From a bacterium (GTDB lineage Bacteria > Patescibacteriota > Minisyncoccia > Minisyncoccales > UBA10102), in contig JAUYMI010000001.1 of the NCBI GenBank assembly GCA_030698665.1, positions 1-35,211 on the forward strand: a stretch of 35,211 nucleotides of DNA, read 5' to 3'. Both the position numbers and the translations under genes were made by a program. Below, piece after piece: positions 32,660-35,211 of this stretch; position 1 is the stretch's first letter, and the number at the start of each line of letters is the position of its first letter. The notes under the pieces are model-generated. The model did no database searches, was not told the origin of the DNA, and saw nothing but the letters and a program-made list of their open reading frames with translations.

Positions 32660-33697
32660 ATGTCAGCTGTCATCATTGCGGTTCTGGCGCTTCTCGTGGT
32701 TCTTTTGAGCGCCCTTGCCATATCTCTCTTTGTGCTTGGCAGAAAGCGTCCTGAAAGCTCGTCTTTGCTTTTGATCCAGAACCAGCTGGCCGAGCTCAGG
32801 GGAACCCTGGACTCCAAGCTCGGAGACACCAACAAGATGGCCCAGGAGCAGTACCGAGCATCAACCTCCGTGATTCGCGACATCACAGAGAAGCTTGCCC
32901 GACTGGATGAAACAAACCGACAGGTGATGGGTTTTGCCGATCAGTTACGGTCGCTTCAAGACACCCTCCAGAACCCAAAGCAGAGGGGGGTGTTCGGCGA
33001 GTACTATTTAGAGACCCTGCTCAAGAACGCCTTCCATCCAAAGCAGTATGCAATGCAGTATAAGTTCCCAGACGGGGAGATTGTGGATGCCGTTCTATTC
33101 ATGGGAGACAAGATGATTCCCATTGACTCCAAGTTCTCTTTGGAAAACTACAACCGGTTATCAGAAGAACAGGACAGCAACCGGAGGGCCGAACTGGAGA
33201 AGATGTTTCTCTCCGACCTCAAGAACAGAATAGAGGAGACCTCAAAGTACATCCGGCCCCAGAATGGGACCACCGAGTATGCCTTCATGTTTATTCCCGC
33301 TGAAGGAATATACTACGATCTCCTGGTCAACAAGGTGGGGGCGGTGAAGAGCAACACGAGGGATCTGTTGGAGTACGCGAGGAACGAGAAGAAGGTGCAC
33401 ATTGTTTCCCCAACCACCTTCTACGTCACGCTGCAGGCTCTGTGGCAGGGGATGAGGGCGTACCAGATTCAGGAGTCCACCAAGGACATACTAAAGAACG
33501 TGGGCCTGCTCCAGCGCCACATGAAGGCATACCAGGAGTATCACGGGAAGCTCGGGGGGCACCTGGGGACCGTGGTCAACGCGTACAACAGGTCCTCAAA
33601 GGAGTTCCGGAAGATAGACAAGGACATTCTCAAGCTCACAGGGGATTCCAACGAAGTTGATCTCGCAGAGCTTCAGGCTCCTGAGCAAGAGGAATAA
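32660..33697 (+). CDS. rmuC: DNA recombination protein RmuC
   Basis: RmuC (345 aa) is a PD-(D/E)XK-fold protein that limits inversions at short repeats. It has an N-terminal anchor (VIIAVLALLVVLLSALAISLFV, 4-25), a coiled-coil region (NQLAELRGTL to DQLRSLQDTL) and the nuclease-like core: KQRGVFGEYYLETLLKN, GEIVDAVLFMGDKMIPIDSKF (putative catalytic D/D-x-K), then YAFMFIPAEGIYYDLL and IVSPTTFYVTLQALW. The length is at the short end for the family. It has its own promoter and is followed by the 509-bp non-coding block. Confidence 0.94.
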   Translation: MSAVIIAVLALLVVLLSALAISLFVLGRKRPESSSLLLIQNQLAELRGTLDSKLGDTNKMAQEQYRASTSVIRDITEKLARLDETNRQVMGFADQLRSLQDTLQNPKQRGVFGEYYLETLLKNAFHPKQYAMQYKFPDGEIVDAVLFMGDKMIPIDSKFSLENYNRLSEEQDSNRRAELEKMFLSDLKNRIEETSKYIRPQNGTTEYAFMFIPAEGIYYDLLVNKVGAVKSNTRDLLEYARNEKKVHIVSPTTFYVTLQALWQGMRAYQIQESTKDILKNVGLLQRHMKAYQEYHGKLGGHLGTVVNAYNRSSKEFRKIDKDILKLTGDSNEVDLAELQAPEQEE

Positions 33698-33954
33698 CTT
33701 CGCGGTACTTGTTTTCCGTATCCTCGTTTGTTCTCTCATTAACTGTCTTTTATCCGTAAATATTTGTTCTTTAGAGCAAGTATTTTCTTTTACGGGTACT
33801 TGCTTTCAAGGAAATTGCAGGATCGCCTCTTTTCCAGCAAAGATTTTGCTTGATTCTGATGGCTCAGATCCATGATGTTGACATCCTTTTGGCCTGTTTG
33901 GAACGCTAATTTGAAATACACGAGGGTTATCCCATAGCGTATGGCATAACCCTC
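33698..33954. other. Gene-poor stretch downstream of rmuC with stacked inverted repeats
   Basis: No credible ORF. CCGTAAA (33754-33760) with TTTACGG, and GCAAGTA with TACTTGC, form overlapping hairpins at about 33754-33808. AGCAAA/TTTGCT and the palindrome GATGTTGACATC follow. A 33-bp near-perfect palindrome (33922-33954; arms GAGGGTTAT/ATAACCCTC and CCATA/TATGG) ends exactly where the next promoter begins. Confidence 0.6.
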
Positions 33955-33978
33955 TTGACGAATATTTGTTCTTTAGAG
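33759..33978 (+). repeat. 18-bp direct repeat pair
   Basis: AATATTTGTTCTTTAGAG occurs at 33759-33776 and again, identical, at 33961-33978. The second copy fills the spacer of the promoter at 33955-33983; the first copy has no matching -35 and -10. Confidence 0.8.
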
Positions 33979-33983
33979 ATAAT
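33955..33983 (+). promoter_or_regulatory. Strong promoter with adjoining palindrome
   Basis: TTGACG (33955-33960), a 17-bp spacer and GATAAT (33978-33983). The 33-bp palindrome touches its -35, so it may be an operator. The predicted start at 33990 is an A that is also the A of an ATG. Confidence 0.7.
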
Positions 33984-33989
33984 AGAGTA

Positions 33990-34165
33990 ATGCCTGGTAG
34001 GGCATTGGAGTATCAGCGGTACTATATGGAAGACAGCTGGTTTGGAAAGATTCTGCATCAGCTGTAAACGAAAACCCCGTCTGAAGCTCGTATCATAACA
34101 TGAGTGGCGCTCACAACAACACGATTTTCATTTGGAGTGCGATGCACTCTCGGGGTTTTCAATTT
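33990..34165 (+). ncRNA. Putative structured RNA or leader RNA
   Basis: From the predicted start the transcript folds into AATGCC/GGCATT (33989-34006), ACAGCTG/CAGCTGT (34033-34065) and a 10-bp closing stem GAAAACCCCG (34070-34079)/CGGGGTTTTC (34151-34160) that encloses TGAG/CTCA and GAGTGC/GCACTC hairpins, a three-way-junction shape. A 25-codon ORF starting MPGRALEYQRYYMED (33990-34067) shares the first part, so it could instead be a leader-peptide attenuator for the gene at 34207. No known RNA family is recognised. Confidence 0.5.
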
Positions 34166-34206
34166 GATTATATGGGGAATGTGAAGAGGTGTCAAGGCCT
34201 TGCGCA

Positions 34207-35211
34207 ATGAAGATGAAACCGACACGCTACATCTCCCTTAAGGAAGCAAGTAGGGTCTGTGGGTATTCGCAGAAGTATTTGAACCTGCGAGCACGACAGG
34301 GAAAACTGAAAGCAGAAAAGGTTGGAAGAAACTGGGTAACCACGAAGGAGTGGCTGGATGATTATATCCGGGGTGTGGAAAACTTTCGTGAGGCCCAGAG
34401 CCGATCTGCCGTAGCCGCAAACCTGCCCGTTCAAGAAGCGGGCGTTCTGCTTGAAAGAGAGAGGGTTTCCTTGCCGCTCAAGGGAGCTTTGGTTCTTGTT
34501 GTTGCCGCTGCCATTGTCTTTATTGGGATTACGTCAGGAGAGCAAGGAATGCAAAAGGGGGTAGCAGCTGTAACAGAAGTTCTCGCTCAAACAGAGAGGA
34601 CGGGAAAGCAAGTAGTGCTCGGGGCACAAGATCTTCCAGAAGATCTCAACAAACTCAGTCAAAATGTTGGTAGAGGAGTGAAGTACGCCGTAGAATCTCC
34701 AAGCGAATTTGCTTACACATACGCAGATTGGCTTGCAAGGGGTGCAACCTCTCTCACAAAAGGCATTGGCAAGGCATACGTGCAAGCCGACCAGGCGCTC
34801 AGCCATGGCATTCGCTCTGACCTCTCTGGTATTGCTGCTGGGTACCGCAGCTTCAATGACACAGTGGACTCCCTGTTTACCAAGGCCAGTGGCTTTAAGT
34901 TCTTTGCCAAGGGAGAACCGGCAGGGGAGCAGCCGCCCCAGCAAGAGGAGCCCCTAGCAACTCCAGGAGAACCTGCCCCAGAGCAGGGTCCCACCGTCAT
35001 TGTGCAGCAACCCGTGCGCGAGGTTGTCCGCGAGGTTTTGGACTCTTCCGCCCTTGAGGAGCTGAGAGCCCAAGTGGCAGATCTCCTCACTCTGCAGGGT
35101 GACCTTCAGTCCCTCCGCGCGCTCGCAGAACGCATCCAGTCCCACCCTCCTGACATCGTGAACCCCGTGGCCCCCGTGTACATTGGTTCTTCTGGCATCC
35201 AGGTTGGGGGA
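34207..35211 (+). CDS. HTH-TM-surface protein, 5' part (runs off window)
   Basis: At least 335 aa; open at the window end. Residues 5-55 form a MerR/excisionase-type helix-turn-helix (TRYISLKEASRVCGYSQKYL, GRNWVTTKEWLDDYI). A transmembrane helix follows at about 91-109 (LKGALVLVVAAAIVFIGIT). The outer part has helical stretches, a Pro/Glu/Gln-rich linker (about 237-262), a coiled-coil-like segment (REVVREVLDSSALEELRAQV) and begins a new region, VAPVYIGSSGIQVGG. The design resembles CPR proteins that join a cytoplasmic DNA-binding module to a long surface fibre; the fibre itself would lie beyond the window. The ATG at 34207 is used; GTG 34189 and ATG 34213 are alternatives, and no good Shine-Dalgarno marks one. 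Confidence 0.75.
   Translation, partial: MKMKPTRYISLKEASRVCGYSQKYLNLRARQGKLKAEKVGRNWVTTKEWLDDYIRGVENFREAQSRSAVAANLPVQEAGVLLERERVSLPLKGALVLVVAAAIVFIGITSGEQGMQKGVAAVTEVLAQTERTGKQVVLGAQDLPEDLNKLSQNVGRGVKYAVESPSEFAYTYADWLARGATSLTKGIGKAYVQADQALSHGIRSDLSGIAAGYRSFNDTVDSLFTKASGFKFFAKGEPAGEQPPQQEEPLATPGEPAPEQGPTVIVQQPVREVVREVLDSSALEELRAQVADLLTLQGDLQSLRALAERIQSHPPDIVNPVAPVYIGSSGIQVGG

Follow-up and report, generated by a model that had tools for sequence, protein, structure and literature searches.

CopA and the attenuation antisense RNAs of the pT181/pIP501 type are short, folded, terminator-ended RNAs that run head-on to an mRNA leader, and RNA-OUT is one stable hairpin. The RNA-OUT of IS10 is transcribed on the opposite strand, from a promoter 35 bases 3′ of that of its target, and pairs perfectly within the target 5′ UTR, with repression of translation, and plasmid R1 CopA is an antisense RNA to the repA leader (PMC1994261). 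In E. coli, DnaA regulates nrdAB via DnaA boxes in the promoter, for which TTATCCACA is the consensus box (PMC8203912).

The window, by which we mean the whole stretch of DNA analysed (35,211 nt), is contig C19 of a 572-kb assembly of 29 contigs with an estimated completeness of 100%. The locus is flanked by rmuC (32660-33697; Pfam RmuC, E 3e-51) on one side and by a gene for an HTH-transmembrane-surface-type protein on the other. As in IS10 RNA-OUT, an opposite-strand promoter would drive a short RNA fully complementary to the target 5′ UTR; unlike IS10 RNA-OUT, the locus lacks a transposase, the target is the HTH-membrane-surface gene, and the predicted sRNA leaves the start codon uncovered and has a terminator-like stem of its own at its end. 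Like CopA at the repA leader, it is short, folded and head-on to an mRNA leader, whereas it is chromosomal and its target is a surface gene, not a replication gene. Unlike the pT181/pIP501/CopA-type attenuation RNAs, the window locus has no demonstrated second attenuator fold. IS10 RNA-OUT is the closest functional model, with CopA/repA similar.

The predicted RNA forms a new family, functionally of a known type, and its regulatory setting is unusual. It is absent from Rfam: there was no match in Rfam 15 at the gathering score, and a relaxed search of the locus gave chance-level matches only. When the element itself was searched as DNA against relatives, the matches were short and again at chance level. 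No description of the RNA was found in the literature on Patescibacteria/CPR small RNAs, 6S RNA and DnaA, in a search that covered few subscription papers. To our knowledge, gene regulation in the Patescibacteria, to which these bacteria probably belong, is nearly unknown. Many Patescibacteria live on other bacteria and probably make contact with these hosts through large surface proteins. The features of the locus are as follows.

33919-33957, no strand: near-perfect palindrome, where relatives have a DnaA box; possible HTH operator
33955-33983, plus: forward promoter of the HTH gene, TTGACG-N17-GATAAT, 10/12 consensus
33984-34206, plus: leader of the HTH mRNA, ~220 nt, which includes the exact complement of the sRNA (direct reading)
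34062-34160, minus: predicted antisense sRNA, ~95 nt, start 34160, end approximate (covariance model and fold)
34070-34079, minus: P1 helix 3′ arm CGGGGTTTTC, then a weak U-tract GTTTAC; covaries in relatives
34151-34160, minus: P1 helix 5′ arm GAAAACCCCG, beginning 6 nt past the −10; covaries in relatives
34167-34195, minus: antisense sRNA promoter, TTGACA (34195-34190), 17 nt, TATAAT (34172-34167), 12/12 consensus
34207-35211, plus: HTH-transmembrane-surface-type protein gene, 5′ part, ATG at 34207, cut by the contig end

Promoter and predicted antisense RNA in the window

An earlier note on this DNA had proposed a structured plus-strand transcript beginning at 33990. The stems and the 10-bp closing helix that it described exist and were recovered when the leader (33985-34206) was folded; the plus-strand fold (MFE −69.9 kcal/mol, z −2.2) is moderately unusual only, and the RNA is probably better read on the minus strand. 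For the same segment, z is −4.1 on the minus strand, which forms one closed structure, versus −2.4 on the plus strand. The minus-strand promoter at 34195-34167, overlooked in that note, is the sole 12/12 promoter within 33690-34300. The P1 helix GAAAACCCCG/CGGGGTTTTC is 10 bp long in the window, and the U-tract 3′ of the hairpin is weak (GTTTACAG). The covariance model R2, for which the window copy is a training member, gives 38.8 bits on the minus strand (34160-34064) and 13.8 bits on the plus strand.

The predicted sRNA (34062-34160) lies wholly inside the leader (33984-34206) and is thus fully complementary to the 5′ region of its target. The start codon of the HTH gene is outside the sRNA span, and the minus promoter overlaps the likely ribosome-binding region of the gene. 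The suggestion of an uncharacterised small RNA holds, but this RNA is best explained as a predicted antisense RNA made on the minus strand from a promoter of its own, and less well as the beginning of a transcript from 33990. The leaderless 25-aa ORF can be read as 25 codons from ATG 33990, but it is not conserved (13, 2 and 5 codons in L048, L018 and L023), and a leader-peptide attenuator is unsupported because the short ORF before the hairpin is not conserved.

Recurrence and covariation of the module among relatives

Among 99 non-redundant HTH-gene upstream regions from relatives, 27 module copies were identified by eye and by folding, each with a TTGACA-type promoter on the minus strand and a closed hairpin behind it. 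The layout, present in approximately 27 of the 99 regions, is TTGACA-N16/17-TAnnaT, 6-8 nt, and a blunt hairpin usually with a U-tract at its end. At 28/99 loci a minus-strand TTGACA lies no more than 160 nt from the HTH codons and has a −10 that matches in 4/6 positions or better; mononucleotide shuffles give 0.9 such loci (maximum 4). The gap from −10 to hairpin is 6, 7 or 8 nt in all 27 curated copies, a normal start-site distance, and since the closing helix always lies 6-8 nt past the −10, transcription would begin with the first base of the helix. In 14 of the 27 copies at least 7 of the 8 U-tract positions are U, the inner arm of the hairpin ranges from 44 to 101 nt, and an inner motif, GAAAAAUC.CC, recurs across families. 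Instances come from at least 12 families of one order, and in the window's genome there is one for each of the two paralogues; the module is missing from ~70% of HTH loci and from most genomes.

Compensatory changes, whose absence from relatives the earlier note had named as counting against a functional RNA, were found. The sequence of the closing helix varies jointly with its partner (GAAAACCCC, GAAGGCCC, GAAGACCC, GAGAGCC and CAAAATCCCC), and among 23 aligned copies P1 has double changes at five of its eight pairs, with 95.6% of cells paired. When the register of P1 and P2 was slid by 1-3 columns, pairing fell from 86% to 36-65%, and shuffles were also clearly worse. The wobble cells of P1 comprise 16 G.U in the minus orientation versus 4 A.C, the plus-strand counterpart of G.U (p 0.012). 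In P2 they are reversed (3 G.U versus 18 A.C), a contradiction that is probably due to a misregistered P2 alignment, and P2 is not relied on. The MFE is lower on the minus strand in 23/27 copies (Wilcoxon p 3e-4), the plus strand folding better at the four loci L040, L086, L108 and L119, and the mean T/U content of the 8-nt tail is 5.8 on the minus versus 4.8 on the plus strand (p 0.035). RNAalifold found no pairs on a plain MAFFT alignment, in which the arms of the closing helix were not in register, and the sequence-only model (R1) that came from it was not kept.

The training copies had been picked partly by their promoters, which are therefore not independent evidence. R2 contains no promoter sequence, and in a search against 246 genomes of the order it matched six copies outside the training set: L169 (G158), L181 (G157), L188 (G091), L198 (a second copy in G085), L179 (G025) and L180/L197 (G063). 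Promoters with 11/12 consensus and gaps of 6-8 nt accompany 6/6 of these, whereas in six other weak matches (E 4e-5 to 2e-3) the promoter scores just 6-7/12; E-values divide these two sets imperfectly, that of L188 being 4.5e-4. Five of the six copies lie 5′ of an HTH-membrane gene, and for four of them, in antisense orientation, this is an HTH gene of the same family. Judged by eye, the gene that the G025 copy precedes combines a MerR-like N-terminus with a membrane segment and fibre-like repeats. The G063 copy is found between rodA and rpoB with no adjacent HTH gene, a distant version of the gene lying elsewhere in that genome without the module, so the cis linkage is not absolute. A class-wide search with the model outside the order gave one weak match, which was promoterless.

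Individual loci depart from the simple arrangement. The hairpin module is doubled in tandem 5′ of one HTH gene in L196 (G001:C1:79800-81300), with similar hairpins, and in L039 (G023), with diverged hairpins. At L037/L198 (G085:C4) what appears to be an inserted GIY-YIG-like reading frame separates the sRNA from the HTH gene, and L031 (G022) has an apparent decayed module in which the minus −35 and one helix arm are left and the hairpin is lost.

The HTH gene and its forward promoter

The gene next downstream, at 34207, does encode an HTH protein, as had been read from the sequence, and is truncated by the contig end. Pfam HTH_17 matches the window protein weakly (18.4 bits, E 0.0026) and the homologue L169 at the cut-off (27 bits). 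Homologues occur in 87/247 genomes of the order, and one was found in Doudnabacteria (L047), which, like the size of the genome, points to the Patescibacteria/CPR; a hydrophobic TM-like segment follows the HTH in 44 of the 49 homologues with at least 110 readable residues. They are often immediately 3′ of rodA (flanks read by eye), whereas the window copy comes after rmuC. A paralogue in the window's own genome (C10:8456, L048), 73% identical, lies 3′ of rodA and has Kelch repeats at its end. The window HTH has K16 and N19, at which positions most relatives have E/D and S. We hypothesize that the window copy is a transposed or duplicated paralogue in which the operator and the recognition helix may have evolved in concert. 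Tandem double HTH domains precede the membrane segment in many of the order's HTH proteins (at L018, L029 and several further loci).

The forward promoter TTGACG-N17-GATAAT is present as reported, and in relatives it is kept as TTGAC-N17-GATAAT/GAAAAT. Its distance to the HTH codons is 152-316 nt where the module is present versus 12-127 nt in 49/55 loci where the module is absent. The DnaA box TTATCCACA, matching in 8 or 9 of 9 letters, is found at 64/81 recognisable forward promoters, for which shuffles expect 0.35, and is almost always 8-10 nt 5′ of the −35. A search of 60 genomes for the DnaA box-promoter pattern gave 40 promoters, and the reversed control pattern gave 0. The paralogue L048 keeps the box (TTATCCACA-N9-TTGACG); a DnaA box was looked for at the window forward promoter and is absent. 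The likeness to E. coli nrdAB lies in the consensus TTATCCACA in the promoter region of relatives and in a ribonucleotide-reductase-like gene with the same layout; unlike in nrdAB, the putative DnaA box of relatives is fixed 8-10 nt from the −35 of a surface-protein gene, and the window copy has lost it. The DnaA box-N8-10-TTGAC layout also occurs 500-640 nt 5′ of another gene in several family members (L219, L221-L224), which we take to be a ribonucleotide reductase from its appearance. A further occurrence, at L220 (G000:C5:23153) in the genome of the window, precedes a different gene.

The near-perfect palindrome is likewise confirmed, as GGGTTATCCCATAGCGTATGGCATAACCC, with 18-nt arms (33919-33936 and 33940-33957) that are 89% complementary around a 3-nt centre. 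Its core, GGGTTATSCCATA, has exact matches genome-wide only in the two arms. The arm sequence TATCCCATA is one mismatch from TATCSGATA, a motif found with at most one mismatch in 81/99 HTH-gene upstream regions versus 2/99 shuffled, and its density in the upstream 250 nt is 23 times that of the flanks. This enrichment and the one-mismatch arm make the proposed self-regulating surface system plausible, and the palindrome may be bound as an operator by the HTH protein. An exact 18-nt direct repeat, AATATTTGTTCTTTAGAG, places a copy of the forward-promoter spacer 202 nt upstream (window 33758-33778 and 33960-33980); it is not conserved in relatives and is perhaps a local duplication. As a common promoter element AATATTTGTTCTTTAGAG was rejected, since at two mismatches it gave about the same count as a reversed-pattern control, in unrelated contexts.

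A proposed convergent antisense pair and its alternatives

The promoter-hairpin-terminator module, its covariation, recurrence and position are established at the level of sequence, and the predicted sRNA gene itself is well supported. We consider it fairly probable that the RNA is a cis-antisense sRNA of the RNA-OUT/CopA type that represses the surface-protein gene; transcription, repression and the binding of DnaA and of the HTH protein are what we infer from the arrangement. The forward sigma70-type promoter would transcribe the HTH-membrane-surface gene via the ~220-nt leader, and the independent minus promoter inside that leader would start an RNA of ~95 nt at 34160, head-on. Paired from its first base onward, the sRNA would form a single closed, imperfect hairpin, with its end at about 34062. 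Its exact complementarity to the mRNA leader makes repression in cis most likely, through base-pairing to the nascent leader, collision of RNA polymerases or both, and the surface protein would be produced only if the forward promoter outruns the antisense RNA. Since the sRNA is wholly 5′ of the start codon and its promoter lies on the likely RBS region, pairing, RNase III, attenuation and collision could all contribute; by analogy we favour pairing plus collision.

The DnaA box and TATCSGATA at the forward promoter of relatives suggest that the gene is probably under DnaA control and HTH autocontrol, and the circuit may tie surface-protein expression to the replication cycle. A recurring covarying RNA family with its own promoter, facing a usually DnaA-boxed promoter, is a concrete and testable circuit. 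We propose only tentatively a wider scheme, in which DnaA at a fixed box would drive the membrane-tethered HTH-adhesin gene, the HTH would feed back on TATCSGATA, the blunt hairpin antisense RNA would gate the leader, and the RNA might also act in trans, as its persistence in G063, where the HTH gene is not alongside, suggests; this would be a widespread, as yet undescribed circuit coupling an adhesin to chromosome replication in small-genome bacteria.

An alternative to the cis-antisense RNA places the function in the plus-strand leader, which would be a structured 5′ UTR carrying a terminator-like hairpin (attenuator) ahead of the HTH gene, the minus promoter being secondary. The leader does fold (z −2.2), its hairpin is stable with T-rich tails (4.8 of 8) that make a leader terminator possible, covariation alone cannot distinguish the strands, and G012 (L025) has the hairpin in the absence of a good minus promoter. 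We regard this as unlikely, because a consensus minus promoter is fixed 6-8 nt from the hairpin in the 27 curated and in 6/6 independent copies, minus-strand folds and U-tracts are stronger, and the leader peptide is unconserved.

That the minus-strand RNA has trans targets, either other mRNAs or a protein, its site opposite the HTH leader being historical, is quite unlikely in our judgement: nearly all strong copies are antisense to and upstream of an HTH-membrane gene, and each paralogue in the window's genome carries its own copy. It would account for the promoter and hairpin retained without a neighbouring HTH gene in G063 and for the recurrence of GAAAAAUC.CC across families.

We give low probability to convergent transcription alone being what matters, through promoter interference, with the hairpin a short terminator that spares the upstream gene. 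Hairpin and terminator are indeed a single structure and the inner arm length is highly variable (44-101 nt), but a minimal terminator needs no 60-100 nt with a recurring inner motif, and the transcript is too short for strong occlusion of the distant forward promoter.

A short 6S-like RNA that binds RNA polymerase is highly improbable: its ends do pair into a closing stem and Rfam 6S is not above cut-off in 40 relatives, but at 45-100 nt versus about 180 the RNA is too short, the large central bubble is absent, and the element is tied to one gene family and absent from ~70% of HTH loci and most genomes. The 6S identity was rejected on its length and on the lack of a family match above cut-off, 6S RNA (RF00013) having no match at the locus or elsewhere in the window's genome. 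Weak below-cut-off 6S matches do occur at L192 (G020:C33:9246-9383) and L193 (G010:C1:36535-36670), both genomes being of the same family and without the antisense module.
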